In this document: positions 9,766 to 54,083 of the stretch, piece after piece
How the letters are laid out: every line of letters starts with the position of its first letter
Position numbering within the stretch: position 1 is the first letter of the stretch
NCBI RefSeq assembly: GCF_029457495.1
Contig: NZ_CP120361.1
Span: 1,938,001 to 2,002,000, forward strand
DNA: 64,000 nucleotides
DNA from: Chelativorans sp. AA-79
Lineage (GTDB): Bacteria > Pseudomonadota > Alphaproteobacteria > Rhizobiales > Rhizobiaceae
Reading direction: 5' to 3'
The notes under the pieces: model-generated
What the model saw: only the letters and a program-made list of their open reading frames with translations
What the model was told of the DNA's origin: nothing
Database searches by the model: none
Made by a program: the position numbers and the translations under genes

Positions 9766-9766
9766 G

Positions 9767-35976: not shown

Positions 35977-36972
35977 ATGGACGAGACATTCCGTGCCCTG
36001 ATGATCGTCGATCGCGACGGCGCCCCCACGGCCGAGTTCCGCGAATTGACGGTTGCCGACCTGCCGGATCACGACGTGCTGGTCGAAGTCGCCTATTCTA
36101 CGCTGAACTACAAGGATGGGCTTGCCGTCAGCGGCAAGGGTCGCATTGCGCGACGGCTGCCCCTGGTGGCGGGCATCGACGTTGCCGGAACCGTCATCGA
36201 GAGCCGGTCGCCGGACTGGAAGGCCGGCGATCATGTGATCGTCAACGGCTGGGGGCTTTCCGAGACCGAATGGGGCGGCTACACGCGCTACCAGAAGCTG
36301 AAGCCGCAATGGCTGACCCGCCTGCCGGAGATCTTCACCCTGGAGCAGGCGATGGCCATCGGCACCGCCGGCTACACCGCCGCGTTGTGCGTGGACGCGC
36401 TGGAGCAATGGGGCAGCATCGCGCCGGGAGGCAGGGAGGTGCTGGTCACCGGTGCGGCGGGTGGCGTCGGCTCGACCGCGATTAGTCTTCTTTCCGGGAA
36501 AGGCTATCCGGTCACCGCCTCCACCGGCCGTCCCGAAACACACGACTATCTTTCGGCCCTGGGTGCAGCGAACTTCGTGGAGCGCGAGGCGCTGGCCGCG
36601 AAGGGCGGCCCGCTGCAGAAGGAGCGCTGGGCGGGCGCGGTGGATTCGGTCGGATCGACGACCTTGGCCAATGTGCTGGCCCAGACCGCCTATGGCGGGG
36701 CGGTGGCCGCCTGCGGCCTGGCTGGCGGCATGGAACTTCCCGCAAGCGTGGCGCCGCACATCCTGCGCGGCGTAACGCTCATCGGCATCGACAGCGTCAT
36801 GGCGCCTGCGGGCAAGAGAGATCATGCCTGGAAGACGCTCGCCGATCATCTGGACAAGGCGCATCTCGACAGGATCGCACGCGTCGAGCCGCTGTCGGAA
36901 CTGCCGAGGCTCGCGAACGAGATCGTCGCCGGCAGGATCCGGGGACGCGTCGTGATCGACGTCAGGGCCTGA
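35977..36972 (+). CDS. acuI: Acrylyl-CoA reductase-type oxidoreductase (AcuI/YhdH)
   Basis: A 331-residue zinc-free medium-chain dehydrogenase/reductase of the AcuI/YhdH group. The start RALMIVDRDG, the YSTLNYKDGLAV segment and the NADPH motif VTGAAGGVGSTA near residue 158 are typical. The family reduces acryloyl-CoA to propionyl-CoA with NADPH, detoxifying acrylate from DMSP or other C3 acids. Following a GntR gene and facing an acyl-CoA synthetase gene, it fits use of a C3 acid, but the physiological substrate is inferred. Confidence 0.85.
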   Translation: MDETFRALMIVDRDGAPTAEFRELTVADLPDHDVLVEVAYSTLNYKDGLAVSGKGRIARRLPLVAGIDVAGTVIESRSPDWKAGDHVIVNGWGLSETEWGGYTRYQKLKPQWLTRLPEIFTLEQAMAIGTAGYTAALCVDALEQWGSIAPGGREVLVTGAAGGVGSTAISLLSGKGYPVTASTGRPETHDYLSALGAANFVEREALAAKGGPLQKERWAGAVDSVGSTTLANVLAQTAYGGAVAACGLAGGMELPASVAPHILRGVTLIGIDSVMAPAGKRDHAWKTLADHLDKAHLDRIARVEPLSELPRLANEIVAGRIRGRVVIDVRA

Positions 36973-37030: not shown

Positions 37031-38674
37031 CTATTCGAGTTCGCTGGCCAGATTGCGCAGCGCGAACTTCTGGATCTTGCCGGTCGACGTTTTGGGAATC
37101 TCGGCGAAGACGATCTTGGCGGGGCACTTGTAGCCTGCCAGATTCGCCTTGCAGTGTGCCAGGAGATCGGCTTCGCTTGCTTGCCTACCGGGCTTGAGTT
37201 CCACGAAGGCAACCGGCCTTTCGCCCCATTTCTCGTCCTGTCTGGCGACGACGCCGCAGACGGCGACGGCGGGATGCTTGTACAGCGCGTCCTCGACCTC
37301 GATGGAAGAGATGTTCTCACCGCCCGAAATGATGATGTCCTTCGAGCGGTCCTTGAGCTGGATGTAGCCGTCCGGATGAAGGACCCCGAGATCGCCGGAG
37401 TGGAACCAGCCGCCGGCGAAGGCTTCCTCGGTGGCCTTCCTGTTCTTCAGATAACCCTTCATGACGATGTTGCCGCGGAACATGACCTCGCCCAGTGTCG
37501 TGCCATCGGCGGGCACCGCTTCCATGGTTTGCGGATCGCGCACGGTGACCGCTGAAAGGGACAGGTAGTTGACCCCCTGGCGGGCTTTCCTGACCGCCTG
37601 TTGCGAGGCCGGGAGGGCGTCCCAGTCCGAATGCCACTCGTTGACGACGGCCGGACCGTAGGTCTCGGTGAGGCCGTAGAGGTGGTTTACCCGAAAACCG
37701 GCTTCCGACATGGCCTGCAGCACCGCTTCCGGTGGTGGCGCAGCTGCCGTGTTGAAGATCACGTTGTGCGCAAAGGCGCGCTTCTCGTCATCGCGCGCGT
37801 TGACCAGCGTCGACATCACGATCGGCGCGCCGCAAAGATGGGTGACGCCATGGTCGGCGATCGCATCGTACATCGCCCTGGCGCGCACCCAGCGAAGGCA
37901 GACGTGCGTCCCGGCCTGCACCGCGACTGCCCAGGGAAAGCACCAGCCGTTGCAATGGAACATCGGCAGCGTCCACAGATAGACCGGGTGCTTGCCCATT
38001 TCCGAGTGGATCGTGTTGCTGAGCGCGGCCAGTGCGGCGCCGCGGTGATGGTAGACAACGCCCTTCGGATTCCCGGTCGTTCCCGACGTATAGTTCAGCG
38101 CTATCGCATCCCATTCGTCGACGGGCATGACGCCCTCGAAGCTTTCGTCGCCTCCAGCCACGAACGCGGCATAGTCGCGGCTGCCGATCCGCTCGCCTTT
38201 GGGGGCGGGCGCGTCGTCGGGATAGTCGGGGTCGTCGAAGTCGATGACGAGCGGCGTGACCGCCGCCTGCCCGAGCGCGCTTTTCATGACGCCGGAAAAC
38301 TCACGGTCGACGATCACGATCCGGGACTCGGCATGGTCGAGCTGGAAGGCGACGGTGGCCGCGTCCGAGCGCGTGTTCAATGAATGAAGCACCGCTCCAT
38401 TGGCCATGGGCACGCCGAAATGCGTCTCCAGCATCGCAGGCGTGTTGGACAGCATCACCGTGACCGTGTCGCCCTTGCCGATTCCTTCCTTGACGAGAGC
38501 GGAGGCGAGCTTGCGGCAATTCTTCCAGAACTGCGCGTAGGAGAGCCGGGTCTCGCCATGGATCACCGCCAGACGGTCAGGGTAGGTTCGCGCCGCTCGC
38601 TCCAGATAGATCAGGGGCGTCATCGGCTGATGGTTGGCCTCGCAGCGCTCCAGACCATCTTGGTATTTGTTCAC
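37031..38674 (-). CDS. Acyl-CoA synthetase (AMP-forming)
   Basis: GTG 38674, 8 bases after GGGAGG, gives 547 residues. The AMP-binding motif YTSGTTGNPKGV (about residue 185), the LYGLTETYGP block and the C-terminal catalytic Lys in TSTGKIQKFALR are all present. It resembles medium-chain and 3-methylmercaptopropionate-type (DmdB) ligases. It is 44 bases after the rhodanese gene and may be the last gene of the long minus-strand operon. It should activate a carboxylic acid to its CoA ester. Confidence 0.86.
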   Translation of the reverse strand: MNKYQDGLERCEANHQPMTPLIYLERAARTYPDRLAVIHGETRLSYAQFWKNCRKLASALVKEGIGKGDTVTVMLSNTPAMLETHFGVPMANGAVLHSLNTRSDAATVAFQLDHAESRIVIVDREFSGVMKSALGQAAVTPLVIDFDDPDYPDDAPAPKGERIGSRDYAAFVAGGDESFEGVMPVDEWDAIALNYTSGTTGNPKGVVYHHRGAALAALSNTIHSEMGKHPVYLWTLPMFHCNGWCFPWAVAVQAGTHVCLRWVRARAMYDAIADHGVTHLCGAPIVMSTLVNARDDEKRAFAHNVIFNTAAAPPPEAVLQAMSEAGFRVNHLYGLTETYGPAVVNEWHSDWDALPASQQAVRKARQGVNYLSLSAVTVRDPQTMEAVPADGTTLGEVMFRGNIVMKGYLKNRKATEEAFAGGWFHSGDLGVLHPDGYIQLKDRSKDIIISGGENISSIEVEDALYKHPAVAVCGVVARQDEKWGERPVAFVELKPGRQASEADLLAHCKANLAGYKCPAKIVFAEIPKTSTGKIQKFALRNLASELE

Positions 38675-38718
38675 TACGTTCACCTCCCACAGATACCGCC
38701 GCAGCCGCGGCCGGTCGC

Positions 38719-39108
38719 CTATGCTTCGCGCTTCTTCTTCTCGGCAACGGGAAAGCCGGCCCGCTTCCACTCGCTGAAGCCGCCGCGCATGCTTTTCGCG
38801 TTCAGCCCCATCTCCTGTGCCACCTTGGCCGCAAGCAGCGAGCGCCAGCCCGACGCGCAGTAGAAGACGAAGGTCCGGTCCTCCGCGAATGCCGGTTTGT
38901 GATACGGGCTTTCGGGATCGATCCAGAACTCCAGCATCCCGCGCGGCGCGTGCATGGCATCGGGTATCATGCCGTCGCGTTCGAGTTCGCGCGGGTCGCG
39001 GACGTCGACCATCACGACGTCGGCCGGTTGCGATGCCATCTCGGCCGTATCGACGGATTGAACGACCGCCTCGGCCTCCGCCAGCATCTCCTTGTATCCC
39101 TTGGCCAT
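38719..39108 (-). CDS. Rhodanese-like domain protein
   Basis: ATG 39108 gives 129 residues, a single rhodanese domain. MVDVRDPRE near residue 34 and the active-site loop YCASGWRS with Cys near residue 86 are clear; the loop fits a sulfur transferase. The N-terminus GYKEMLAEAEA is typical of cytoplasmic rhodaneses. It starts 2 bases after the AhpD-like gene, so the pair is tightly coupled. Confidence 0.87.
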   Translation of the reverse strand: MAKGYKEMLAEAEAVVQSVDTAEMASQPADVVMVDVRDPRELERDGMIPDAMHAPRGMLEFWIDPESPYHKPAFAEDRTFVFYCASGWRSLLAAKVAQEMGLNAKSMRGGFSEWKRAGFPVAEKKKREA

Positions 39109-39110
39109 GT

Positions 39111-39680
39111 TCAGCGTCCCAGCGAATAGAACTCGTCGTTCGGCCGCATGCTGGTGACGTTCGCCAGCCGGTTGGACATGCCGAAGAAGGCGGCGATGGC
39201 TGCGATGTCCCAGGCGTCCTCCTCGGTGAAGTCGTGCGCTTTCAGGACGTCCATATCCTCCTCGTCCACCTCGTAGGCGCGCTGGGAGACCTTCATGGCA
39301 AAGTCCAACATGGCCATCTGGCGCGGCGTGACGTCGGCCTTGCGATAGTTGATCGCCACCTGATCCGCGATCAGCGGGTCCTTGGCGCGAATCCTGAGGA
39401 TCGCGCCGTGCGCCACCACGCAGTATTGGCACTGATTGATGTTGCTGGTCGCGACCACGATCATCTCGCGCTCGGCCTTGGTCAAATTGCCCGGCTTGTC
39501 CATCAGCGCGTCGTGATAGGCGAAGAAGGCACGGAACTCGTCGGGCCGGTGGGCGAGGACAAGAAAGACGTTGGGGACGAAGCCGGACTTCTCCTGCACC
39601 GCGAGGATGCGCTCGGCGATGTCCTTGGGCAGGTCGGCGATGTCGGGGACGGGAAACCGGCTGATGGGCTGGGCGTTCAT
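39111..39680 (-). CDS. AhpD-like peroxidase-related protein
   Basis: A 189-residue protein of the carboxymuconolactone decarboxylase/AhpD fold. The redox motif NQCQYCVVAHG shows the CxxC plus His arrangement of AhpD-type hydroperoxide reductases. The start PISRFPVPD matches the peroxidase-related subgroup. It sits 18 bases after the molybdopterin oxidoreductase and 2 before rhodanese, suggesting a role protecting against, or turning over, a reactive product. Exact activity unknown. Confidence 0.85.
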   Translation of the reverse strand: MNAQPISRFPVPDIADLPKDIAERILAVQEKSGFVPNVFLVLAHRPDEFRAFFAYHDALMDKPGNLTKAEREMIVVATSNINQCQYCVVAHGAILRIRAKDPLIADQVAINYRKADVTPRQMAMLDFAMKVSQRAYEVDEEDMDVLKAHDFTEEDAWDIAAIAAFFGMSNRLANVTSMRPNDEFYSLGR

Positions 39681-39698
39681 CTTGTTCTCCAGGGATGT

Positions 39699-42011
39699 TC
39701 AGGTGGCCGCAAGCTCGGCCAGTCGGGTGAGATAGCTGTCGAACGCATCGGCCAGGTGCCCGTGATAGGGTTCGATCCGGACCAGGCAAGTGTGCGCCGA
39801 GCAGCCCTGGCCGAAGCGCGAGGTCGGCACGTCGAGCGTAAGCACATTGGGGTTTCCCGCGATGTCCAGCCCGCTATTCCCGGCGGGGGTCAGCCAAGCG
39901 CCGGTCGGCAGCACGGCGACGCCCTCGCGGACCGTGTCCGTCACGTTCGCCGTGGCGAGGCAGGCGCCCCGGTCGTTCCACAACCGCACCGTTGCGCCGT
40001 CGGCGATATCGAGCCGCGCGGCGTCGTCCGGGTTGATGCGAACCTGTTCTCGGCCGTTGCGCTTGAGGGCGCGGCTTGCGCGACCGGTCTCGAGCTGGCT
40101 GTGCAGCCGTCCCTCCGGCTGGTGCGAAATGAGATGGAACTCATCGGGCGCGCTTGCGTGCCCGAGCCATTCCGCCGGCTCCAGCCATGCGGGATGGTGC
40201 AGGCAGTCGTCATAGCCGAGCCGGGCAAGCGTCCGGGAGCCGAGAACGATGCGGCCGCTTTCGGTTGCCAGAGCGTGGGCGGTCGGATCCCGGCGGAAAT
40301 CGGCCAGGTAGGTATAATGCCGCCGGAGCGGCACCGCCGCATAGCCCCGTTCCCAGAAGGTGTCGAAATCGGGCATCTGAAAGTCGCGCCGCACTGCCGC
40401 GTCGGCGCGGCTTTCCTCGTAGAGATGACGCAGCCATCCCATCTCGTCGCGGCCCTCGTTGAAGGCGGGTCCGAGCCCGAGTTCGCAGGCGACGGCATTG
40501 AAGATGTCGAAATCCGAACGCGCCTCGCCGAGCGGCTCGATCGCCTTGTGCATGGCGAGCACGTAGTCCGACCGGCGGTTACCGGCGATGTCGTTGCGCT
40601 CGATAGAGGTCGAGGCGGGAAGCACGATGTCGGCGCGCTGCGCCGTCGCGGTCCACATCGGGTCTTGAACGACGATCGTCTCCGGGCGGGCCCAGGCGCG
40701 TTCGAGCCGGTTCAGGTCCTGGTGATGGTGGTAGGGATTGCCGCCGGCCCAGTAGACCAGCCGTGTGTCGGGATAGGTGCGCGTCTCGCCCTGATACGTG
40801 AAGCTGGCGCCAGGATTGAGCAGAAGGTCGGCGATGCGCGCAACCGGGATGAAGCTGTCGATCGGCTTCGTCAGCTGGGAGATCGCCGGCGCCTTGCCGG
40901 TGTTGAACGGGGCGCCGACGCCGCCCAGCGATCCATAGCCGTAGCCGACGCCGCCGCCAGGTAGGCCGATCTGCCCGATGACCGAGGCGAGCCCCAGCGC
41001 GGCCCAGAAGGGCTGCTCGCCGTGGTGAGCCCGTTGCAGGCTCCAGCTCACCGTGATCATGCTGCGCCGCTCGACCAGCGTGGGGGCGAGCGCTGCGATG
41101 CGGGAGGCGTCGAGGCCGGTGATGGTGGCGGCCCAGGCCGCGTCCTTGGCGACACCGTCGGTCCTGCCTGCAAGATAGTCGAGGAACGTCTCCGACCCGC
41201 TGCAGCAGCGCTCGAGGAAGTCGCGATCATGCCGCCCGGTCTTCACGATCTCGCCGGCGAGCGCGAGCATCAGCGCGGTGTCGGTGTTCGGCCGGATGGG
41301 CCACCATTCGGCGCCGACCCACTCGGGCAGGTCGTCGCGGAGCGGGGAGATCAGGATGATGCGCGCCTTGCGCTCAGCGAGGCGGCGCAAATGCGTCTCC
41401 AGAGTATGGGTGCCGATGCCGCCGGCTTCCGTCTGTGCGGTCCGTGGCGACATGGCGCCGAACACGAGCACCGTCTCGCTATGCTCGGCGATCGAATCGA
41501 GCGTATTGGCAAGTCCGCCGCTGGCGACGTCGCTGCCAAGCGTGTGACGCAGGATCACCGGGCCGGCTGCGATCGAATAGGTATCCACATGGCCTGTATA
41601 ACCGCCGGCGAGGTTGAGCATGCGCTTTAGCAGGGATGAGGCGTGGTGGAAGCGGCCGCAGCTCGTCCAGCCGTAGGAGCCAGCGAAGATCGAAGCGTTG
41701 CCGAAGGCGGACGAGACGCGGCTGATCTCGCCCGCGACCAACTGCGTCGCCTCGTCCCAGGTGACCGGGACGAAGCGTTCGCGCCCGCGCCCGGCGCCGT
41801 CGCTCCGTTCCCGGTTTTTCAGCCAACCTTCCCGCACCATGGGCCGTAGCACGCGCCGCTCCGGATTGGCCCATTCGCCGACAGAATGGATGATGGGCGA
41901 GGGAGCCGGGTCCGGGCCGAACGGTTCGGCGCCGACGATCCGGCCATCCTCGACAAGCAATGCATAGGCGCCCCAGTGACTGCAGTGCGGAACGCGTCTG
42001 ATCGTGCCCAT
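39699..42011 (-). CDS. Molybdopterin-dependent S/N-oxide reductase family protein (BisC-like)
   Basis: A 770-residue DMSO-reductase-family enzyme. It lacks the N-terminal iron-sulfur cluster motif and a Tat signal, so it should be cytoplasmic. The motif GSYGWTSCGRFHHA near residue 110 matches the TorA/BisC block in which Ser binds molybdenum. The C-terminal dinucleotide-binding domain is complete to GCSAHTCLVR. BisC-type enzymes reduce biotin or methionine sulfoxide and other S- or N-oxides. Its place among CoA-transferase and aldolase genes is unusual. Confidence 0.87.
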   Translation of the reverse strand: MGTIRRVPHCSHWGAYALLVEDGRIVGAEPFGPDPAPSPIIHSVGEWANPERRVLRPMVREGWLKNRERSDGAGRGRERFVPVTWDEATQLVAGEISRVSSAFGNASIFAGSYGWTSCGRFHHASSLLKRMLNLAGGYTGHVDTYSIAAGPVILRHTLGSDVASGGLANTLDSIAEHSETVLVFGAMSPRTAQTEAGGIGTHTLETHLRRLAERKARIILISPLRDDLPEWVGAEWWPIRPNTDTALMLALAGEIVKTGRHDRDFLERCCSGSETFLDYLAGRTDGVAKDAAWAATITGLDASRIAALAPTLVERRSMITVSWSLQRAHHGEQPFWAALGLASVIGQIGLPGGGVGYGYGSLGGVGAPFNTGKAPAISQLTKPIDSFIPVARIADLLLNPGASFTYQGETRTYPDTRLVYWAGGNPYHHHQDLNRLERAWARPETIVVQDPMWTATAQRADIVLPASTSIERNDIAGNRRSDYVLAMHKAIEPLGEARSDFDIFNAVACELGLGPAFNEGRDEMGWLRHLYEESRADAAVRRDFQMPDFDTFWERGYAAVPLRRHYTYLADFRRDPTAHALATESGRIVLGSRTLARLGYDDCLHHPAWLEPAEWLGHASAPDEFHLISHQPEGRLHSQLETGRASRALKRNGREQVRINPDDAARLDIADGATVRLWNDRGACLATANVTDTVREGVAVLPTGAWLTPAGNSGLDIAGNPNVLTLDVPTSRFGQGCSAHTCLVRIEPYHGHLADAFDSYLTRLAELAAT

Positions 42012-42052
42012 GTCGCTTCTCCGGAGACAGTTCTCCGGCCCTTTCTTTGTCG

Positions 42053-43603
42053 CTAGATCACGGCCTCGATGAGAAACGGTCCCTTCCTCGCGCAGGCCGA
42101 ATTCAGGAGATCGGCGAAGCCTTCTACGGTGTCGGCTCGTGCGGCTTCGACACCCATGCCTGCAGCCAGCGACACCCAGTCGATTGCAGGGTCGTCGAGG
42201 TCGAGCATGCGGCTTGCGTTGTGGCCGGGCACACCCGCGCCCACATTCTTCAATTCGCCGTAGAGGATGGCGTAGCGCCTGTTGGAGAACACAATGGTGA
42301 GGCAGTCAAGCCGCTCGCGCGCTTGCGTCCACAGTGCCTGTGCCGTGTACATGCCGCTGCCGTCCGCCTGGAGCGTGATGACCTTTCGGTCGGGGCAGGC
42401 AACCGCCGCGCCCGTGGCGAGCGGCAGGCCGATCCCGATCGCGCCGCCGGTCAGTTGAAGGAAGTCGTGCGGCGGCGCGCCGTAGGTGCAGCGGAAGAAG
42501 TCACGGCCGGAGGAAATCGACTCGTCGCAGACGACGGCATTTTCCGGCATATGGAGAGCCAGTGCGGCGGCGATGGCATCGGGCGTGAGCCTGCCGGCGG
42601 GCAGGGCCGGCCGCTCGCGCGCGGCAAGCCGTGGCTTGTCGGACGCGGCCAGGCCGACCTCGTCGGCCAGCGCCTCGATTGCCGCGGGCAAGTCGCTTCC
42701 TGGTTCGGCGAGGTCGAGCACCGCGCACTCTGCCGGCAGCATGCTGCTCGGCTTGCCAGGATAGGCGAAGAACCCGACAGGCGCCTTTGCGCCGATGAGG
42801 ATCACCTGTTCCGTCGAGGCGAAGGCCTCCAGCGCCTTGTCGATGACATAGGGCACGCGATCGACCCTCGCGCGGCCCGCGCCGCGCTGCATGCGGCCGT
42901 TGGACTGCTGGGCCATCAAGCGTGCGCCTGTACGTGCGGCGATCCGGTCGAGCAGCGCAAGCGGCGCTTCGCGCAGGGCGGTTCCCGTGGCGATGATCGT
43001 GGTCTGTCGGCCGGAGAGCAGCGCCTGTGCCGCCTCACGGATGCGTTGCGGCTCGGGTTTCGCAGGGCCGGGCATGGCGAGGCGCTCCGGCGCGCGGCCG
43101 TTCGTGGTGGTCCAGGCTGCGTCCGCGTGAAGGATCAGGGTGGCGATCTGGCCGGGGGCGGTGTTGGCGGCGCGGATCGCCTCCTGCGCCACGGTGCCCA
43201 CCGCATCCGCGCTGGTCGCGCGGCCGACCCAGTGCGACATCGGCTGGGCGAGAGAGTCGATATCGGATGCCAGGGGTGCATCATGGGCGAGATGCCAGGT
43301 GGCGTGGTCTCCGACGACATTGACCATCGGGCTGCGCGCGCGCTTGGCATTGTGGAGATTGGCGAGCCCGTTGGCCAATCCCGGCCCCAGATGCAACAGC
43401 GTCAAGGCGGGCTTGTCGGCCATGCGGGCATAGCCGTCGGCCGCACCGGTCACCACGCCTTCGAACAGCCCCAACACGCAGCGCATGCGTGGCTGGCGAT
43501 CCAGCGCGGCGACGAAGTGCATCTCCGACGTGCCCGGATTGGCAAAGCACACGTCGATGTCGTTGGCGAGCATGGTCTCGCAGAGGATATCGGCGCCGTT
43601 CAT
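42053..43603 (-). CDS. TPP-dependent acetolactate synthase-like enzyme
   Basis: A 516-residue thiamine-diphosphate enzyme. The N-terminal FANPGTSEMHFV and catalytic Glu in GLFEGVVTGAADGYARM, and the C-terminal TPP motif ADGSGMYTAQ ending in NRRYAI, are family marks. The protein is shorter than true acetolactate synthases and resembles the benzoylformate-decarboxylase-like group. It overlaps the kinase stop by 4 bases. It probably decarboxylates a 2-keto acid in this pathway. Confidence 0.86.
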   Translation of the reverse strand: MNGADILCETMLANDIDVCFANPGTSEMHFVAALDRQPRMRCVLGLFEGVVTGAADGYARMADKPALTLLHLGPGLANGLANLHNAKRARSPMVNVVGDHATWHLAHDAPLASDIDSLAQPMSHWVGRATSADAVGTVAQEAIRAANTAPGQIATLILHADAAWTTTNGRAPERLAMPGPAKPEPQRIREAAQALLSGRQTTIIATGTALREAPLALLDRIAARTGARLMAQQSNGRMQRGAGRARVDRVPYVIDKALEAFASTEQVILIGAKAPVGFFAYPGKPSSMLPAECAVLDLAEPGSDLPAAIEALADEVGLAASDKPRLAARERPALPAGRLTPDAIAAALALHMPENAVVCDESISSGRDFFRCTYGAPPHDFLQLTGGAIGIGLPLATGAAVACPDRKVITLQADGSGMYTAQALWTQARERLDCLTIVFSNRRYAILYGELKNVGAGVPGHNASRMLDLDDPAIDWVSLAAGMGVEAARADTVEGFADLLNSACARKGPFLIEAVI

Positions 43604-45117
43604 GCAATGTGCTCCCGAGGCAGGTCAACTGCCAGATCTGCGATTGCGGACAAGTCCTGCCATGACGGCTGTAGCATGTCGAGCAGGCGTGAGAAGAGCC
43701 TGTACTTGGCGGCCGCATAGTCCCCGACTGCGCCGGGCTCGGGCGCAACGACCGTATCGGGCGCGACGATCCAGTCCCGTGCGAGCGTCTCCGGAGATGC
43801 GCCGTACAGATGCTTGGCCGCGATGGCGGCCAGGCCGCGCAGGCCGGCAAGGCCGCCCGTGGTGGCCTGGACCTTTCGGCCGAGCACGGTCGCCAGGAAG
43901 CGGGTGAAATTGGCATCGCCCGAGAGGCCGCCGCCGAGCGACAGGTCTCCCTCGGGCGCATTCATCATCTCGTGGCTCTTGCACGCGACGAAGGCAAGCG
44001 CCTCCAGCGCAGCCCAGGCTATTTCACGCGGGCCTGAGGCCGCCGTCAGCCCGAAGATCGCGCCGGAGGCATGGGGGGCGGTCACCGGCGCGCGTTCTCC
44101 CCCGGGCTCCAGGAAGGGATGAAGCAGCACGCCGGAATAGGCCGGCTGCGATGGTCCGGCCGCCCCGCTCCCGGTCAGCCTCGCCACATGGGCGCAGAGC
44201 GCGGCGCCGTTGAAGCTTGGGTGAAAGCATAGATATCCGCCCGTGAGTGCGAATGGCTGGATGATGGCGCCGGGGGGCTTTTCCCGCATCGCGCCCGGAT
44301 CGTCCATGTGGCAGGCATGGATCGCGCTGGTGCCGAAAATGGACGCTCTCGTCACGCCCGGCCGGCTGCCGAGGCCGAGGCCTGTCAGCGCCGATTGCAC
44401 ATCGCCGGGGCCGAGCAGGACGGGAGTCCCCTCCGCGATGCCGGTCCTGTCGGCCGCTGCTTTCGACAGGCCGGCGCGGCAGTCGCCGATCGGCGCGAGT
44501 TCGGGAAGCAGCGCCACGCCCCGGCGAAGGCCCAACGCCTCTTCGACGGCGGCGGATGTCTCGCCCGTACGCCAATCGCCCCATGTGGGAAGGAGTGCGG
44601 TCGGCTCCGCCAATACTCTTCCGGTCAATCCGTGAAACAGCCATTCCTTGCAACGGAGGGCATGAGCGATACGCTCCAGCCGTGCCGTGTCGTTGTCCTG
44701 CAGCCACAGCAGGTGCAGGCTCTGGGAAGCGGCCGTGGGCTGCGCCGATGTGACCGCCTCGACCGCTTCGAGGCGGCCGGCACGCTGCAATGCCGTGGCG
44801 AGCGCGCGCGTACGCCCGTCGAGCCAGGTGATCGCGTTGCCGACCGCCCGTCCGCCGGTGTCGATCGGCCATAGCCCGTCGCCCTGTCCGGTTATGATCA
44901 GGCCTTCGATCGGCCCTTCCAAACGTCGGGCGCACTCGGCCAGCACCGCGAAGGCGTCGTCCAGCGTCGCCTGCATGTCCTGCTCGACGCGCGCGCCGTC
45001 GCGCTGCAGTGCGGAATTGTCGCGCTGCGCCGTCGCCACCACGCGCCCCTCGGCATCGAAGGCTGCCGCCTTGACGGTCGTCGTGCCCGAATCGAGGCAG
45101 AGGAGTCTGGCGCTCAT
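43600..45117 (-). CDS. FGGY-family carbohydrate kinase
   Basis: A 505-residue sugar kinase. The N-terminal phosphate loop LCLDSGTTTVKAAAFDAEG and the GDG and GG.SGD-like motif LGGGLSGDANFTRF in the C-terminal half are FGGY marks. It probably phosphorylates a linear sugar, polyol or sugar acid. It lies 20 bases after the class II aldolase gene, the usual partner in fuculose, ribulose and erythrulose-type pathways. Confidence 0.88.
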   Translation of the reverse strand: MSARLLCLDSGTTTVKAAAFDAEGRVVATAQRDNSALQRDGARVEQDMQATLDDAFAVLAECARRLEGPIEGLIITGQGDGLWPIDTGGRAVGNAITWLDGRTRALATALQRAGRLEAVEAVTSAQPTAASQSLHLLWLQDNDTARLERIAHALRCKEWLFHGLTGRVLAEPTALLPTWGDWRTGETSAAVEEALGLRRGVALLPELAPIGDCRAGLSKAAADRTGIAEGTPVLLGPGDVQSALTGLGLGSRPGVTRASIFGTSAIHACHMDDPGAMREKPPGAIIQPFALTGGYLCFHPSFNGAALCAHVARLTGSGAAGPSQPAYSGVLLHPFLEPGGERAPVTAPHASGAIFGLTAASGPREIAWAALEALAFVACKSHEMMNAPEGDLSLGGGLSGDANFTRFLATVLGRKVQATTGGLAGLRGLAAIAAKHLYGASPETLARDWIVAPDTVVAPEPGAVGDYAAAKYRLFSRLLDMLQPSWQDLSAIADLAVDLPREHIA

Positions 45118-45137
45118 GACGGGGCCGCGAGCAAGGT

Positions 45138-45824
45138 TCAGGATGCCCGGCGCAGGCCTTCAAGGGCCTTGCTGCTCTGCTGGCCGTAGGTCTTGAATTT
45201 CTCCAGGACCTCGGCAATCTCCGGTTCGGAAAGGACGGGCGGCTCGCCCAGCGGCAGGCATAGGAGGTACTGGCGGGCCAGTTCCTCCACCGTGACGGCG
45301 AGTGACAATGCTCGCGCGATCGAGACATGCGCGGCGATGACGCCGTGATGGGCCATCAGGCAGGCACGGCGGCCCTCCAGCGCTTTGACGACCCGGTCGG
45401 CGAGCGCCTGCGAGCCGAATATCTCGTAGGGTGCACAGCGGATCGAGTTCCCACCGGTGGCTGCGATGGAATAGTGGATCGCCGGGATGTCCTTCTCCAG
45501 GATGGAGACCGTCGTCGCATGCGTGGAATGGGTGTGGACGACCGCATTGAGGTCGGGGCGGGCCTTCAGGATGTCGCGATGGAAGCGCCATTCGCTCGAC
45601 GGCAGCACATCGCCCTTGAAGGTTGCGTCCCAATTCATCGCTACGACGTGATCGGGCGTCAGCTTGTCGTAGGGAATGCCGGTCGGCGAGATCAGGAAGC
45701 CGTCGCCGAAGCGGACGCTGATGTTGCCGGCGGTGCCCTTGTTGATGCCGAGTCCATTCATGCTGCGGCAGGCTTCGATCAGTTCGGTCCGAAGGGTCAG
45801 TTCTTCGCTCATGGTGTCGCTCAT
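45138..45824 (-). CDS. Class II aldolase/adducin family protein
   Basis: ATG 45824, overlapping the dehydrogenase stop (ATGA), gives 228 residues. GNISVRFGDGFLISPTG is the phosphate-binding segment, VVHTHSTHAT has the two zinc His, and MAHHGVI the third His region. Members are L-fuculose-1-phosphate aldolases and ribulose-5-phosphate epimerases. With the FGGY kinase and dehydrogenase it suggests kinase then retro-aldol cleavage of an unusual sugar acid. Confidence 0.88.
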   Translation of the reverse strand: MSDTMSEELTLRTELIEACRSMNGLGINKGTAGNISVRFGDGFLISPTGIPYDKLTPDHVVAMNWDATFKGDVLPSSEWRFHRDILKARPDLNAVVHTHSTHATTVSILEKDIPAIHYSIAATGGNSIRCAPYEIFGSQALADRVVKALEGRRACLMAHHGVIAAHVSIARALSLAVTVEELARQYLLCLPLGEPPVLSEPEIAEVLEKFKTYGQQSSKALEGLRRAS

Positions 45825-46870
45825 TTGATCGGGTGAAGGGGCTGTTGTCCGTCGAGAAGCCGCCCGATGTCCTCCGCTATCATATCGGCCGCCTTGACAA
45901 TCGAATAGCGCGAGGCGCCGGCGATGTGCGGCGACAGGGTGACATTCGGCAGTTTCAGTAGCGGCCAATCGGCCGGCGGCGGCTCCGGATCAAAGGTGTC
46001 GAGCGCAGCGCCCTTGAGGTGGCCGGAAACCAGCGCGTCGTGCAGCGCGCAATAGTCGAGAACCTGGCCGCGCGTCGTGTTGACGATATAGGCGCCACGT
46101 TTCATCGATTCGATCTGCTGGCGGCCGATCATGCCCCTGGTTTGCGGGGTGACCCGTGGATGCAGCGTGATGACATCGGCGACGGCAATGAGCTGTTCCA
46201 GTTCCACCTTCTCGATGCCGGCGGCGCGATCCTCGTCGGTGAGTTGCTTGAAGGGATCGGCGACGAGGATCCTGCAGCCGAAGGGTTGCAACAGCCGAGC
46301 GACGCGCGTGCCGATGTCGCCATAGCCGACGATCCCGACGGTGAGTTCGCAGAGTTCCGGTCCCGCATGATCGAAGTGGTAGAACTCGCGGCGGAACTCC
46401 CCACTGGCGACCGAGAGATGGCCGCGGATCAGGTTGCGCGTCTCGGCCAGCAACGAAGCGACGGTGAACTCGGCAACTGCGGAGGCGTTGCGGCCGGGTG
46501 TGTTGATGACCGTCACCCCGCGTTCCCGCGCGGCCGCCATTTCGATGTTGACCGGCCCGCCACGCGAGACGGCGATGATCTCCAAGTTCGGCGCACGGGT
46601 GAGGCTTTCCGCCGTGATCGGTGCGAGATGCGTGATCAGGATATCCAAATCCCCGATGAAGTCGAAATAGTGCTCGGGCCGACCGACGAACTCGGCGACC
46701 GGCAGCGATGGGTCGTGTTTTGTCGATTGGATCCTCAGCGGCCAATCGAGCATCACGCTCTTCACCGAGAACCGGTGATTGGAAAGGCGGCGGTCGAGTG
46801 CCCTTTCGAAGAAGGCGGGCTGCATGAATCCGTCGCCGATGATGCCGATCGAAAGTGTCTCTCTCACCAT
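45821..46870 (-). CDS. D-2-hydroxyacid dehydrogenase family protein
   Basis: ATG 46870 gives 349 residues. The NAD motif GIVGYGDIGTRVA lies near residue 178; catalytic Arg in NTTRGQVLD, Glu in FDPEPPP and His in LSPHIAG are all retained. The N-terminal domain departs from usual family members (IIGDGFMQPAFFERAL), so the substrate may be unusual. It is 11 bases after the CaiB-type gene. It shows the full triad, in contrast to the enzyme at 13162-14142. Confidence 0.86.
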   Translation of the reverse strand: MVRETLSIGIIGDGFMQPAFFERALDRRLSNHRFSVKSVMLDWPLRIQSTKHDPSLPVAEFVGRPEHYFDFIGDLDILITHLAPITAESLTRAPNLEIIAVSRGGPVNIEMAAARERGVTVINTPGRNASAVAEFTVASLLAETRNLIRGHLSVASGEFRREFYHFDHAGPELCELTVGIVGYGDIGTRVARLLQPFGCRILVADPFKQLTDEDRAAGIEKVELEQLIAVADVITLHPRVTPQTRGMIGRQQIESMKRGAYIVNTTRGQVLDYCALHDALVSGHLKGAALDTFDPEPPPADWPLLKLPNVTLSPHIAGASRYSIVKAADMIAEDIGRLLDGQQPLHPIK

Positions 46871-46881
46871 GTCCCTTTTCC

Positions 46882-48105
46882 TCAGGCAATGCACACGGCC
46901 GGTGCGTCGTCGTCATCGTCAAGCCCGGGCAGCACCTCCCGGTATGGTGCCGGCTCGACGGCGAGCGCGTCGAGGATCTCGCCCGTATGCTGGGCAAAGC
47001 GCGGCGGCGCCATCCGGTAGCCCGCCGGCGTCCGCGACATCTTGATCGGGCTTCCGGTGCCGCGATATTCTCCAATGTCGACCACCATCTCCCGGTGCAG
47101 CGTATGCGGTGCGGTCGCCACCTGCTCGATGTTGCGGACCGCGCCGCAGGGGACGCCCGCCTTGATCAGCGTATCCGCGATGGCTTCGCATTCATGCGTG
47201 GCGAGCGCTGCCTCCAGCTCGGCCTTCAGCGCGTCGCGGTTGACGTTGCGGTCGCCATTGGTGGCAAAGCACCGATCGTCCGGCAGGTCCGGGCGGCCGA
47301 TGATCCGGCAGAGCGTTTCGAACTGGCGATCGTTGCCGACCGCCAGGAAGAGCGGCTCCGTTGCCGTGGCGAATGTGTCGTACGGGCAGATATTGGGATG
47401 CGCGTTGCCAGATGGTTCCGCAACCTGGCCGGAGAGATAGTAGTTGGGCAGGTGTGGGTGAAGCAGCGATACGCCGCAATCGTAGAGGGTGGTCTCGACG
47501 AACTGGCCCTTGCCGCTGGTCGTACGCTCGTTGAGTGCCATCAGAATGCCGATGACGGCATTCAGCCCCGTAACCATATCGACCACCGGCAGGCCGACCC
47601 TCAGGGGTTCGCCGCCGCTTTGGCCATTGACGCTCATGATGCCGCAGGACGCCTGGATCGCGGCATCGTAGCCCGGCAGCCCGCCAAGCGGACCGTCGGC
47701 GCCGAAGCCGGACACCCTGCAATGGACAAGGCGCGGAAACCGCTCCGCAAGCTCCTCCTGACCCAGCCCCCATCTCTCGAGCGTCCCCGTCTTGAAGTTC
47801 TCGATGAAGACGTCCGCATCCTCCAGCAAACGCAGCAGCAGCTCACGTCCGGCGGGCTTCGCCATGTCGAGCGCCATGCCGCGTTTGTTGCGGTTGAGGC
47901 CGAGGAAGTAGCTGGCGGTCCCGTTGAGGAAGGGCGGTCCCCAGCCACGCGTCTCGTCGCCCGTCGGAGGTTCGATCTTGATCACGTCGGCGCCATGATC
48001 CGCAAGGATCTGGCCGGCATAAGGCCCGCCCAGCACGCGGCTGGCGTCGATCACCTTGAGGTTGGAGAGAGAACCGTGTGGCAGCATGTCTTTCAATCCA
48101 GTCAT
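46882..48105 (-). CDS. CaiB/BaiF family CoA-transferase (class III)
   Basis: A 407-residue class III CoA-transferase. LKVIDASRVLGGPYAGQ is the N-terminal mark, and the catalytic Asp lies in PGYDAAIQA near residue 163. Length is normal for the family. The ATG begins directly after the CoA-transferase B stop with no gap. It moves CoA between acids. Having a class I pair and a class III enzyme in one operon suggests two different CoA activation steps. Confidence 0.88.
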   Translation of the reverse strand: MTGLKDMLPHGSLSNLKVIDASRVLGGPYAGQILADHGADVIKIEPPTGDETRGWGPPFLNGTASYFLGLNRNKRGMALDMAKPAGRELLLRLLEDADVFIENFKTGTLERWGLGQEELAERFPRLVHCRVSGFGADGPLGGLPGYDAAIQASCGIMSVNGQSGGEPLRVGLPVVDMVTGLNAVIGILMALNERTTSGKGQFVETTLYDCGVSLLHPHLPNYYLSGQVAEPSGNAHPNICPYDTFATATEPLFLAVGNDRQFETLCRIIGRPDLPDDRCFATNGDRNVNRDALKAELEAALATHECEAIADTLIKAGVPCGAVRNIEQVATAPHTLHREMVVDIGEYRGTGSPIKMSRTPAGYRMAPPRFAQHTGEILDALAVEPAPYREVLPGLDDDDDAPAVCIA

Positions 48106-48873
48106 TCAGGAGGGGAGTGCCACACCGGCGATGTCGCGGCGCAGATTGGCCGCGAAACCCGGATAGGTTTCCTCGAGTTCGTCCAGCACACGCCCGCGCA
48201 GCAGCTCGAGCGTGCCACGGTCCGGGGCGGGGGTCACGGACGGGCTCGGATCGTGCAGAAATTCGAAACCGGTCGCGGCACGTATTTCCTCCAGGCTGTG
48301 GCCGGAGTGCATGCTTTCGAGGCGGAAACCCGGGCGCGCGGGGTCGAAGCTGAACAGGCCCATGCCGGTGAGCAGCGCCCGCGGTCCGCCCGTCCGATGG
48401 ATGCCTTCGGGACTCAAGCCCGGAGCGCTGACGAAATCGACCTTCTCGACGAAGACGCGCGGCGAATGCTCTTCCCTGAACAGGATCACGCGCGGCACCA
48501 CGAAATAAAGATAGGCCGAGCCGAAGGAGCCCGGCCAACGCACCTTCGAGCGCGGATAGCCACCTGCTCCGACGAGATTGACGTTGCCTTGGCCGTCTAT
48601 CTGGCCACCGCCCAGAAAGAAGGCGTCGATGCGGCCCTGGCCGGCGCAGTCGAACAGTTCTGCCGAGCCGTTGGTGAAGAAGTTGTGCTCGACGGAACCC
48701 AGGATCGAAATCCTTACCTCCGGCGCCCCCATCTCCTTCTCGAGCGCGCGCAGCAGCATTGCGCCGGCAGCCGGAATTGGGGAGGAGGCGCCCACGGCCA
48801 CGTGCCGCACGCCTTCGAGCAGTCGCGCGACCGTGCAGATCAGGATCTCGCGGGGCGAAGCGGCCGCCGTCAT
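48106..48873 (-). CDS. CoA-transferase subunit B (GctB/IpdB-like)
   Basis: ATG 48873, overlapping the subunit A stop by 4 bases, gives 255 residues. The N-terminal VGASSPIPAAGAMLLR and the LVGAGGYPRSKVRWPG block are typical of glutaconate-CoA-transferase B-type proteins. It should pair with the subunit A product. Some members (IpdAB) are ring hydrolases rather than transferases, so the reaction is open. Confidence 0.82.
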   Translation of the reverse strand: MTAAASPREILICTVARLLEGVRHVAVGASSPIPAAGAMLLRALEKEMGAPEVRISILGSVEHNFFTNGSAELFDCAGQGRIDAFFLGGGQIDGQGNVNLVGAGGYPRSKVRWPGSFGSAYLYFVVPRVILFREEHSPRVFVEKVDFVSAPGLSPEGIHRTGGPRALLTGMGLFSFDPARPGFRLESMHSGHSLEEIRAATGFEFLHDPSPSVTPAPDRGTLELLRGRVLDELEETYPGFAANLRRDIAGVALPS

Positions 48874-49679
48874 TGTGCTGCCTCGAGTGCCGCGCCGCGC
48901 ATGTAATCGGCGAAACCCTCGGCATTGCGGGCGGCGCGCGCGTATCGGGCAAGTTCGGCCGTGTCCGTCGGATATTCGCCCCACAATCCATAGGGGAGGG
49001 CGCCGCGCGGCGCGACGGCGATGTCGCTCACATAGAGCGCGGGCAGGGTGCCCGCCGCGCTTTCCTCGGTGGCAAGGAGGCTTTCCTCCACGATGCGCTC
49101 CACGGTGACGAGCGTGATGCGGGAAGCGTAGGCCATCGCGGCGAGTTCGCGTCGCCGGCCGATCCAGACATTGCCGAAACGGTCCGCCTTCGGAGCGTGG
49201 AAGATGGCGACGTCGGGATGGATCGCCGGCACCAACACGATCGGGTCTCCGCTCTCGGCAAAAGGATTGTCGATCACGCGCCAGTCCTCGCGGTTGGCCA
49301 GAACGTCCGTGCCGATCAAGCCACGGATCGGCATGAAGGGATTCCCCTTCTGCGCGGCCAGCAGGCCGGCGTGAATCGCGGGGCAGGTGGCGTCGATGAT
49401 CTCCACCGTGCCGTCGAGGACCGCCCGGTTGAAACGGGGTGCTCCGCCTGCCTCGCCGAGCGAGACGGCGCTGGTCTCGATCGTGCGTACGAGACCTGCG
49501 CCGATGAGCATGTCGACCTGGAGGCCTCCGGTCGGGACGCACACAAGGTGGAGTTGACCGGCACCGTTTTCGATCAGCGGCATGGTCATTGCCATCGACA
49601 CTCCGGCGTAGTCGACCGGCAGCGCGACGCGCATGCCCGTCTCGACCCGCCGTGCCATCGATTGCAGCTGCGATGCCAA
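48870..49679 (-). CDS. CoA-transferase subunit A (GctA/IpdA-like)
   Basis: I choose TTG 49679, just after GGAGGAGGA, giving 269 residues; the ATG at 49724 lies inside an operator palindrome and would place the promoter elements in the gene. GQLHLVCVPTGGLQVDML and the GLVRTIETSAVSLGEAGGAP block match GctA/IpdA-type subunits. It is the first gene of the minus-strand operon and faces the ABC transporter promoter. Confidence 0.8.
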   Translation of the reverse strand: MASQLQSMARRVETGMRVALPVDYAGVSMAMTMPLIENGAGQLHLVCVPTGGLQVDMLIGAGLVRTIETSAVSLGEAGGAPRFNRAVLDGTVEIIDATCPAIHAGLLAAQKGNPFMPIRGLIGTDVLANREDWRVIDNPFAESGDPIVLVPAIHPDVAIFHAPKADRFGNVWIGRRRELAAMAYASRITLVTVERIVEESLLATEESAAGTLPALYVSDIAVAPRGALPYGLWGEYPTDTAELARYARAARNAEGFADYMRGAALEAAQ

Positions 49680-49705
49680 ATCCTCCTCCTCCCGGTCGGG
49701 CCGGT

Positions 49706-49742
49706 GTTCTATATTGTAGAACAAAATTCTGTTATTCAGAAT
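49706..49742. promoter_or_regulatory. Two predicted IclR operators before the CoA-transferase operon
   Basis: GTTCTATATTGTAGAAC (49706-49722) is a 17-base near-perfect palindrome (7 of 8 arm positions), and ATTCTGTTATTCAGAAT (49726-49742) is a weaker version (6 of 8), centred 20 bases apart, or two helical turns. Both lie just before the CoA-transferase A gene. They match the site at 49867 and fit IclR-type operators. Confidence 0.6.
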
Positions 49743-49821
49743 TAGTTGCGTTTTCCCAACCTGTCAACGGCTCAGGGTGGCGATATGCCCATGGGCGATT
49801 CGATGTCGTGTGAAACGTCGC

Positions 49822-49883
49822 TTGACAAGTCGAGCAAATCGGGTCCAATGATAAATACAGAATGCTGTTCTATAATATAGAAC
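49822..49883 (+). promoter_or_regulatory. Promoter and predicted IclR operator of the ABC operon
   Basis: TTGACA at 49822-49827 is a consensus -35 box, with an AATGAT-type -10 about 19 bases on. The perfect 17-base palindrome GTTCTATAATATAGAAC (49867-49883) follows, just before the ribosome site of the ATPase gene. Its form repeats at 49706. The IclR regulator encoded at the end of this operon (54084) is the likely binder; an IclR could repress or activate. Confidence 0.6.
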
Positions 49884-49898
49884 GCAGGGAGGAGGCAG

Positions 49899-51050
49899 AT
49901 GAGTGACGGTTTGGCTTGGCGCGCAGAGCGCCGGGACACTGCAGTGAACGGCTGCGACGGCGCAGACTCCCGCCCTGCGAAGGGCATCGGCAGCAGTATT
50001 GCCGTGGCCGATGTGTCAAAATCGTATGGCACCTTCAAGGCCGCCGACCGGATCAGGCTCGAGATCGAGCCGGGCGAATTCGTGACGCTGCTTGGTCCTT
50101 CGGGCAGCGGGAAGACGACCCTGCTGAACCTCGTTGCCGGTTTCCAGAAGCTCGACAGCGGCGGAATCCTGATCGACGGGAAACCGATCCACAACGTGCC
50201 GACCCACCGGCGCGGCTTCGGCATGGTCTTCCAGAGCTACGCCCTGTTCCCCAACATGACGGTCACCCAGAACGTCGCGTTTCCGATGCGCATGGCCGGT
50301 ATCGACCGCGCCACCACCGAACGCCGCGTCGCCGAAACGCTGGAGATCATGCGACTTTCCGAGCATGCGTCGAAGATGCCCGCGCAGATGAGCGGCGGGC
50401 AGCAGCAGCGTGTCGCCATCGCCCGCGCCATCGTCATGCGCCCGCGCGTCGTGCTGATGGACGAGCCGCTGTCCGCGCTTGACCGGCGCCTGCGCGAATC
50501 CATCCAGATAGAGATCCGCGACCTGCACCAGAGGCTGGGCAGCACCATCCTGTTCGTGACCCATGACCAGGGCGAAGCTCTGACCATGTCCGACCGCATA
50601 GCCGTGCTCGATGCCGGCCGCATCGTGCAGGTGGGGACCCCCGTGGAGATCTACCGTCACCCGGTAAATCGCTTCGTTGCGTCCTTCGTCGGCGAATCCA
50701 ACCTGATCGAGGCTGAGATCGTCCAGAAGCGCGGCTCGACCATGACTCTGAAGAGCCGCGCCGGATATGTCTTCAACGCGGAGAGCCGCAACGCCATCGA
50801 TGTGGGGCGGGCGACCGTTCTGGTCAGGCCGGAACGCATCGCCGTCTTCGACGAGGCGACGCCGGGCTCGACGCCGGCGACCGTCACCTCCGCCCTCTTT
50901 CTCGGCGAGATCTTGCGGATCGAGGCGCGGATGGAGGGGGGCGAGACCCTGCTCATCCGCTGTACGGACACGGCCAGCCGCGGCCTGCCGGCGGTCGGCG
51001 AACGGCTGCATGTAAGCTGGGGAGCTGAAGACTGCTGGGTGCTGGCATGA
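49899..51050 (+). CDS. ABC transporter ATP-binding protein (PotA-type)
   Basis: A 383-residue ATPase of the spermidine/putrescine/iron (PotA/FbpC) group. Walker A GPSGSGKTTLLN, signature MSGGQQQRV, Walker B LMDEPLSALDRRL and FVTHDQ are present, with a C-terminal TOBE domain. GGGAGGAGG precedes the ATG. First gene of the transporter operon; its stop overlaps the permease start. Its N-terminal 30 residues are a variable extension. Confidence 0.9.
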   Translation: MSDGLAWRAERRDTAVNGCDGADSRPAKGIGSSIAVADVSKSYGTFKAADRIRLEIEPGEFVTLLGPSGSGKTTLLNLVAGFQKLDSGGILIDGKPIHNVPTHRRGFGMVFQSYALFPNMTVTQNVAFPMRMAGIDRATTERRVAETLEIMRLSEHASKMPAQMSGGQQQRVAIARAIVMRPRVVLMDEPLSALDRRLRESIQIEIRDLHQRLGSTILFVTHDQGEALTMSDRIAVLDAGRIVQVGTPVEIYRHPVNRFVASFVGESNLIEAEIVQKRGSTMTLKSRAGYVFNAESRNAIDVGRATVLVRPERIAVFDEATPGSTPATVTSALFLGEILRIEARMEGGETLLIRCTDTASRGLPAVGERLHVSWGAEDCWVLA

Positions 51051-52846: not shown

Positions 52847-52872
52847 AGAAATCAACTGGAGAGGAGACTGAA

Positions 52873-53964: not shown

Positions 53965-53972
53965 TTCACTGC

Positions 53973-54009: not shown

Positions 54010-54083
54010 CTCCGTAAGTCGGTTTGGCCGATTTCGCTCTCTGTGCTAGAGCGCCTTTGTGACTGGGTCGAGAACACCACCTC

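Follow-up and report, generated by a model that had tools for sequence, protein, structure and literature searches.

A widespread eleven-gene operon with a divergent transporter in Chelativorans sp. AA-79, probably a catabolic unit joining aldol cleavage, an S/N-oxide reductase-type enzyme and CoA enzymes

Organization of the operon and its control region

The window analyzed here is a 64,000-nucleotide stretch of the Chelativorans sp. AA-79 contig NZ_CP120361.1, and all coordinates are positions within it. Its minus strand carries, at 37031-49724, a single run of eleven genes separated by -4 to +44 bases, in the 5' to 3' order ctfA, ctfB, caiB, hadh, ald2, an FGGY kinase, a thiamine pyrophosphate (TPP) enzyme, bisC, ahpD, a rhodanese and an AMP-ligase (Table 1). 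A preliminary description of this DNA had proposed a tight eleven-gene operon mixing coenzyme A (CoA), sugar-phosphate and S/N-oxide chemistry and matching no described pathway; all eleven genes were recovered, and the analysis below supports a catabolic unit of that mixed make-up. The operon is real and widespread, occurring in dozens of related bacteria, and probably constitutes a self-contained, substrate-induced catabolic operon.

With the chosen starts, the gaps from ctfA to the AMP-ligase are -4, 0, 11, -4, 20, -4, 41, 18, 2 and 41 bases. The AMP-ligase start behind the last of these is a GTA codon, and the adjacent GTG (38674) gives a gap of 44. The fourth of the overlaps counted earlier arises if the dehydrogenase begins at GTG 46894 and thereby overlaps caiB. 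Between 36900 and 50000, one promoter-like site (plus strand, potA side) was found versus 1.5 expected by shuffling, and five terminator-like sites versus 6.5; the sole minus-strand site among the five lies inside ctfB (48514-48536). Since the GC content of 37031-54833 (65.2%) is close to that of its flanks (63.2% and 62.6%), composition alone does not mark the region as an island.

The unit is larger than the eleven genes, as the divergent potA, potBC, potD and iclR genes (49899-54833) belong to it. A 17-bp palindrome, GTTCyAyAnTRTRGAAC, is present in two copies between ctfA and potA, in the shared promoter, and these are the only sites in this genome with at most one mismatch. At that stringency the palindrome is found at the locus in 14/14 genomes, over which it gives 30 forward matches versus 3 for a control pattern. 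With up to four mismatches, the 34 related loci defined below contain two copies (26 loci), one (6) or none (L066 and L069). In L062 the single copy sits beside iclR, and six matches lie off the promoter (L039, L041, L055, L066 and two in L067); ten distant loci (L073-L082) contain none at this threshold. The linked IclR protein may therefore, as we infer from this arrangement, bind the palindromes and repress both divergent promoters. A wider operator regulon was considered and rejected: elsewhere in the 14 genomes, just three one-mismatch sites occur (G710:C7, G559:C17 and G910:C12:95409). One further exact palindrome lies on a separate contig of G662.

The longest ctfA frame opens at a TTG (49724) that overlies operator 1. 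The gene therefore probably begins at either the TTG at 49679, behind GGAGGAGGAGG, or the ATG at 49658, and automatic start calls for ctfA are likely wrong.

Among solved chains, PotD is nearest to 3rpw_A, followed by 4i1d_A (207 bits) and then by mannopine, GABA-sensor (GABA, gamma-aminobutyric acid), agropine and polyamine binders (110-142 bits). It is likely the importer component of the catabolic unit. The PotB/PotC fusion recurs in loci read as open reading frames (ORFs), for example L039, L049, L172 and L176. The convergent acuI gene is a probable accessory part of the operon and lies inside it in L049 and L195. Its product misses NF051456 by a few bits and exceeds the cut-off of the wider TIGR02823 (405 versus 297). 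The presence of AcuI points to an acryloyl-CoA-type product.

Table 1. Genes and operators of the unit in the window, with presence among the 34 related loci
Feature	Position	Strand	Loci (of 34)	Evidence
ctfA, class I CoA-transferase-fold subunit A	48870..49679	-	31	PF01144 44.7 bits
ctfB, class I CoA-transferase-fold subunit B	48106..48873	-	31	PF01144 29.1 bits
caiB, class III CoA-transferase	46882..48105	-	29	PF02515 420 bits
hadh, D-2-hydroxyacid dehydrogenase-family	45821..46870	-	33	GTG start 46894 possible
ald2, FucA-type class II aldolase	45138..45824	-	34	PRK08087 267 bits, cut-off 264
FGGY-family kinase	43600..45117	-	34 (by selection)	PF00370 and PF02782, both above cut-off
TPP enzyme, benzoylformate-decarboxylase-like	42053..43603	-	29	PRK07586 768 bits, cut-off 363
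bisC, molybdopterin S/N-oxide reductase-type	39699..42011	-	31	TIGR00509 1010 bits, cut-off 1017.6
ahpD-like CxxC protein	39111..39680	-	27	TIGR01926 216 bits, cut-off 81.8
Single-domain rhodanese	38719..39108	-	25	PF00581 61 bits
AMP-forming acyl-CoA synthetase (AMP-ligase)	37031..38674	-	18	PRK08162 903 bits, cut-off 677
acuI, acrylyl-CoA reductase family	35977..36972	+	11	convergent neighbor; NF051456 435.6 bits, cut-off 440
gntR-family gene, before acuI	35182..35946	+	11	
potA, ABC transporter ATPase	49899..51050	+	30	TIGR01187 364 bits, cut-off 356
potBC, fused two-domain permease, 599 aa	51047..52846	+	30	PotB- and PotC-like halves
potD, solute-binding protein	52873..53964	+	29	661 bits to 3rpw_A
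iclR, regulator	54084..54833	+	31	BhcR model 181 bits, cut-off 350
Operator 1	49706..49722	.		GTTCTATATTGTAGAAC
Operator 2, before potA	49867..49883	.		GTTCTATAATATAGAAC

Spread among related bacteria

The operon is sporadic, as no FGGY kinase ortholog was found in 60 relatives (best match 136 bits, 30% identity). Homologues of the kinase with 46-68% identity occur among the 120 listed of 166 matches, the named ones mostly from Rhizobiales and Rhodobacterales, and an alignment of 21 kinase homologues was used to fetch 80 loci. Of these, 34 (L039-L072; best-segment kinase identity 48-63%) are termed related loci; the remaining 46 hold homologues of 24-35%, and in the ten of them that were tabulated (L073-L082) the operon neighborhood was not found. 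Presence in Table 1 means a match of at least 45% identity, and the kinase is present throughout because the loci were found with it. Four loci (L046, L060, L062 and L065) run into contig ends, so that a gene missing from them does not count as lost.

In 24 of the 34 related loci, the complete set of thirteen genes running from iclR to ahpD is found in the same order, with 48-90% protein identity, a recurrence in other genomes that is beyond chance. Of the ctfA-bearing loci among the 34, all whose contig reaches far enough also have bisC (29/29). The kinase is also encoded on eleven plasmid records, including plasmid 1 of Paracoccus denitrificans PD1222, which carries the whole set from IclR to the acyl-CoA synthetase under generic names; the kinase there is PDEN_RS22885, the bisC product PDEN_RS22875 and the solute binder PDEN_RS22925. 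An accessible portion of PMC5339346 names pden_4586 as groES, from which we estimate that the P. denitrificans operon lies at about Pden_4590-4604.

Head enzymes and their replacement

The dehydrogenase, kinase and aldolase form what is called here the head of the operon. The aldolase is 55% identical to E. coli FucA and passes the PRK08087 cut-off; it misses that of the narrower equivalog TIGR01086 (249 versus 400). Residues E78, H97, H99, Y118, H160 and Y213, which we take to be the zinc histidines, catalytic Glu and Tyr of FucA, are invariant in 42 rows (at least 45% identity and 80% coverage, as in the kinase and rhodanese alignments). Given this identity and the kept catalytic residues, the expected outcome would be dihydroxyacetone phosphate (DHAP) plus an aldehyde. 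The kinase retains an invariant D239 and reaches the cut-off of none of the nine NCBIfam models listed, the best being XylB (137 of 380 bits). A second FucA-type aldolase, 50% identical, is encoded elsewhere in the genome (L152, C1:4462001-4481000, within 9119-10129).

A PotD search of 397 genomes of the order returned 11 hits, one of them Chelativorans sp. AA-79 itself. One genome (G523; L174/L182) is of the FGGY type and another (G488; L175) was read as far as ctfB. In eight loci (L172, L173 and L176-L181), an unrelated PfkB kinase and a short-chain dehydrogenase/reductase (SDR) replace the FGGY kinase and hadh. Three of these (L172, L173 and L176) keep ctfA-ctfB-caiB-ald2-bisC-ahpD with divergent PfkB kinase and SDR genes; palindrome copies are also found between their ctfA and PfkB genes, which links the replacement enzymes to the same control. 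The Bradyrhizobium-type loci (L177-L181) consist of ctfA-ctfB-bisC-ahpD, PfkB, SDR and an aldolase of just 50-51% identity, the L177 aldolase and the ctfB of some loci being sequence matches rather than called ORFs. In an aldolase tree covering 16 of the 34 loci (matches over 180 residues), the L178-L181 aldolases branch as a lineage of their own (100/100), apart from the 20-row operon clade (100/99), within which the aldolases of L172, L173 and L176 fall. The best model for the PfkB proteins is IolC, at 127 and 112 bits, far under its cut-off of 300; the SDR matches many models, gluconate-5-dehydrogenase among them. This displacement of one head set by another supports a presumed order of steps in which the substrate would be oxidized, phosphorylated and then aldol-cleaved to DHAP and an aldehyde.

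The constant part comprises only some of the eleven genes. The TPP enzyme, caiB, the rhodanese and the ligase are missing from L177-L181 and from L039, which retains the FGGY kinase and hadh. Tripartite ATP-independent periplasmic (TRAP) carriers are found in three loci by a Pfam match of the solute binder (L062, L066 and L069), and one was recognized by eye in L067. The L066 binder has 4p9k/4pak and 4pdh as its nearest solved structures, which we take to be D-erythronate and pantoate binders.

A ctfA search of 398 genomes of the phylum found it in 10 genomes. In L195 (6907-12611), five genes, ctfA-ctfB-bisC-ahpD-acuI, stand with no head and no transporter within 17 kb. Smaller pieces are ahpD-ctfA-ctfB (L198), the ctfA/ctfB pair alone (L196 and L197) and ctfA plus ctfB with caiB (L199). 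BisC is the one part seen both with the head alone (L062 and L069) and with the tail alone (L195), and the BisC-type enzyme is thus the common link.

Other arrangements of these families were observed as well. In L199 (7642-9346), an MsrB-like gene (by eye) lies beside a 55% CaiB homologue, with a 54% CtfA homologue farther on. In L150 (6516-16187), FGGY kinase, hadh (50%) and aldolase (54%) genes are adjacent in another sugar operon, whose further members (gene names by eye) are a second FGGY kinase, a GlpD-like gene and one of HAD type. In Actinobacteria and Firmicutes (L075, L077, L080 and L082), hadh-like genes (33-41%) are found close to distant FGGY kinases that carry a TxQGDGLW-like motif, suggesting that kinase and hadh may be an older module.

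Reductase and tail enzymes

BisC matches DMSO (dimethyl sulfoxide) reductase over its whole length (nearest solved chain 1eu1_A, 639 bits). Residues Y113, W115 and S146, presumably the Tyr/Trp and Ser ligand positions of the DMSO reductase site, are kept in 40/40 rows (at least 45% identity and 70% coverage, as in the AhpD, CaiB and CtfB alignments), in agreement with the serine-ligated molybdopterin reductase named in the preliminary description. BisC would be expected to reduce an S- or N-oxide, and because this site is kept, the best guess is that the substrate bears one. AhpD preserves a CxxC motif and a His (C84, C87 and H91) in 37/37 rows, and its gene adjoins bisC in the loci where both were read; it is a possible thiol electron carrier for BisC.

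The rhodanese and the S-oxide-type reductase had also been taken as hints of a sulfur-containing substrate. The rhodanese, with C84 invariant in 26 rows, was considered as proof of sulfur and rejected; it is weak sulfur evidence because L039 and L177-L181 lack the gene. In Hoeflea olei (L066:11630-15434), the kinase is followed by an AceE-like E1, presumably similar to MdeB, and a methionine gamma-lyase (515 of 550 bits), and L069 has a MetE-like gene (152 of 406 bits). These neighbors favor sulfur and prove nothing; sulfur is plausible.

CtfA and CtfB bear a weak resemblance to their solved relatives. The nearest solved chains are 5mzw_A (73 bits; which we take to be AibA) and the glutaconate CoA-transferase 1poi_A (62 bits) for CtfA, and 5n03_D (60 bits; presumably AibB) and 1poi_B (58 bits) for CtfB. 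The class I fold assigned earlier is thus matched, but the transferase role is in doubt, since CtfB positions 52-66, where the catalytic Glu is expected, hold no invariant acid in 44 rows; E62 varies, and AibB cannot be aligned with certainty over this loop. CaiB keeps D176 in 33/33 rows, presumably the catalytic Asp of formyl-CoA transferase, and its best NCBIfam model is succinate--glutarate CoA-transferase (328 of a 750 cut-off). The TPP enzyme exceeds the cut-off of an acetolactate synthase model (PRK07586). Acetolactate chemistry is doubtful, however, because its nearest solved chains are benzoylformate decarboxylases (144 bits), a relationship that fits a 2-oxo acid made by a GlcD-type oxidase.

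Searches for aldehyde dehydrogenase (ALDH) and GlcD genes covered 24 of the 34 loci, 7 genomes of the G series and one plasmid. An ALDH resembling succinate-semialdehyde dehydrogenase (SSADH) is found at the locus edge in 11/24 genomes and, by a partial match, in L046; in L066 and L067, an ALDH lies inside the sequence fetched for the locus. With one query, a GlcD-type flavin adenine dinucleotide (FAD) oxidase is found at the locus in 16/24 genomes; other GlcD types occur in L043, L049, L052 and L066.

Proposed pathway and alternatives

Taken together, these features suggest a logic like that of sulfoglycolysis or fucose catabolism, but acting on a polyhydroxy compound that bears an S- or N-oxide. 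The IclR-family protein would use the two palindromes to control transcription in both directions. The PotABCD-type transporter would bring in a small polyhydroxylated compound, probably zwitterionic or carboxylated, given the opine-binder kin of PotD and the TRAP carriers of variant loci. Oxidation by hadh or the SDR, phosphorylation by the FGGY or PfkB kinase and cleavage by the FucA-type aldolase would then yield DHAP and an aldehyde. The BisC-type reductase, possibly supplied with thiol electrons by the AhpD CxxC protein, would strip the oxide oxygen. In many loci, an ALDH, a GlcD-type oxidase and the TPP enzyme could convert the aldehyde to a D-2-hydroxyacid, a 2-oxo acid and its decarboxylation product, and CaiB, CtfAB and the AMP-ligase with AcuI would lead towards propionyl-CoA. 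The whole proposal, from import through oxidation, phosphorylation, cleavage and oxide removal to a tail towards propionyl-CoA, has in our estimate a probability of about 0.5.

A more specific version, 'oxide-sugar glycolysis', is decidedly tentative. Here an imported polyhydroxylated sulfoxide or N-oxide would be reduced by a cytosolic, AhpD-fed molybdoenzyme and cut to DHAP and a heteroatom-bearing 2-hydroxyaldehyde, which would pass through a D-2-hydroxyacid, a 2-oxo acid and an acyl-CoA to acryloyl-/propionyl-CoA, the two head sets having arisen separately.

Several observations weigh against the proposed pathway. BisC falls narrowly below its TIGR00509 family cut-off (1010 versus 1017.55 bits), and the L066 BisC belongs to a different branch (42%). 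CtfAB may not transfer CoA at all, acting as a lyase or hydrolase instead. The tail and AhpD are not universal: in the TRAP-type loci L062, L066 and L069, the sequence read contains hadh, ald2 and the FGGY kinase and neither CtfAB nor AhpD, L062 being truncated at a contig end, and AhpD is also missing from L063 and L067. AcuI, the ligase, the rhodanese, the TPP enzyme and caiB are absent from many loci. The Chelativorans genome itself has no linked ALDH, its 75% homologue lying among unrelated genes, and no GlcD homologue at an E value of 1e-120. Finally, G219, a genome with the tail alone, encodes a 53% homologue of the aldolase at another site.

Two other readings of the head are unlikely, to a similar degree. 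The first is a variant DHAP shunt, whose aldolase would cleave a 5-S-substituted pentulose-1-phosphate, of the methylthioribulose type or derived from the ribose moiety of a ribosyl-homocysteine-like thioether, after BisC had reduced the sulfoxide of that compound. Aldolase homologues of 50-56% do adjoin mtnA in 12/29 other genomes examined, most loci have the S-oxide type of reductase, and the methionine gamma-lyase and MdeB-like E1 of L066 and the MetE-like gene of L069 would fit. However, the Chelativorans genome (G000) has no TIGR00512 match for mtnA, no MtnK- or MtnA-type gene was seen among the operon genes, and the kinase is partnered by a dehydrogenase rather than an isomerase. The tree also places the operon aldolase in a group that includes E. 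coli FucA, away from the mtnA-linked rows, with several deep forks weak and FucA on a long branch. A sugar-acid route resembling the end of inositol catabolism would instead phosphorylate a 5-keto hexonate and cleave it to DHAP plus a semialdehyde on its way to acetyl-/propionyl-CoA, with an oxide-free substrate and BisC in auxiliary repair or redox. The IolC-best PfkB scores, the gluconate-5-dehydrogenase match of the SDR, the SSADH-like ALDH, AcuI and the TRAP solute binders of L062, L066 and L069 are all consistent with it. An auxiliary BisC is harder to reconcile with its persistence beside the head where CtfAB is absent and beside CtfAB where the head is absent, and PotD, after two unnamed chains, has opine, GABA and polyamine binders as its nearest relatives.

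That two unrelated functions, sugar catabolism and sulfoxide or peroxide repair, are simply packed together is quite improbable. The separate occurrence of the parts speaks for such packing, with the tail alone in L195, tail pieces in L196-L199 and the head without CtfAB and AhpD in L062, L066 and L069; yet the Pot-bearing loci that were read through keep the head enzymes or swap in analogues without loss, and both gene sets are preceded by shared operators. Least probable is sulfoglycolysis proper, with a sulfonated sugar as the substrate. Reduction of sulfonates is not a known activity of S/N-oxide reductases, and reading the genes by eye, no models having been run for these functions, revealed no sulfosugar isomerase or kinase, sulfoquinovosidase, sulfite exporter or C-S lyase. 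What it shares with the operon is the underlying plan, in which a redox or isomerase step and a kinase precede the aldolase, and an aldehyde dehydrogenase and the oxidation of a 2-hydroxyacid follow (cf. the consulted portion of PMC9594981).

If the proposed oxide-removing pathway is correct, it would join the few routes built on an aldolase split and hint at an environmental compound used alike by Mesorhizobium, Bradyrhizobium, Paracoccus and Sulfitobacter. Routes to the substrate are offered by the solved close relative of PotD (3rpw), the dedicated operator, which suits a reporter, and the operon of P. denitrificans PD1222.

Comparison with known systems

Searches of the open-access literature yielded no assigned orthologous operon, a finding that the preliminary description had named as one that would refute its claim, and no described pathway of this make-up. 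Nor did these searches turn up an aldolase-split architecture combined with CoA enzymes, AhpD and a molybdenum enzyme of the S/N-oxide reductase type. The main text of an FGGY survey (PMC3245297), examined by term search, makes no mention of Paracoccus, Mesorhizobium or erythrulose.

Close parallels in logic are the sulfo-Embden-Meyerhof-Parnas pathways (sulfo-EMP and sulfo-EMP2), in which, according to the available sections of PMC9594981, a ketose, once phosphorylated, is split by an aldolase into DHAP and a functionalized aldehyde that is then reduced or oxidized, with identical intermediates handled by two non-orthologous enzyme sets. The FGGY/hadh and PfkB/SDR sets may likewise share intermediates. 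Unlike the operon aldolase, YihT and SqiA belong to other families, and those sections mention neither an S/N-oxide reductase nor CoA enzymes. The DHAP shunt (mtnK-mtnA-ald2) also uses a class II aldolase, converting a substituted ketose-1-phosphate to DHAP and an aldehyde (PMC12632272, in the portion available); it differs in its mtnA linkage, the operon aldolase lying apart from the mtnA-linked rows in a genome without mtnA.

The L-fucose pathway (FucI-FucK-FucA-FucO) shares a kinase and a FucA aldolase with the operon, FucK being an FGGY kinase. Here, in contrast, no isomerase or FucO was seen, and a dehydrogenase, CoA enzymes and a molybdenum enzyme are added. CtfAB has the two-subunit fold of the class I pairs GctAB, AibAB and IpdAB (the latter two names being our assumed assignments for the solved chains matched), its nearest solved relatives, but matches them at just 60-73 bits, and the catalytic Glu of the transferases is not seen in CtfB, where the alignment is uncertain. 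The operon BisC matches the BisC/TorA/DMSO reductases over its whole length and shares their active-site Tyr, Trp and Ser, while differing from them in scoring below the family cut-off and in its linked AhpD, a possible electron partner.

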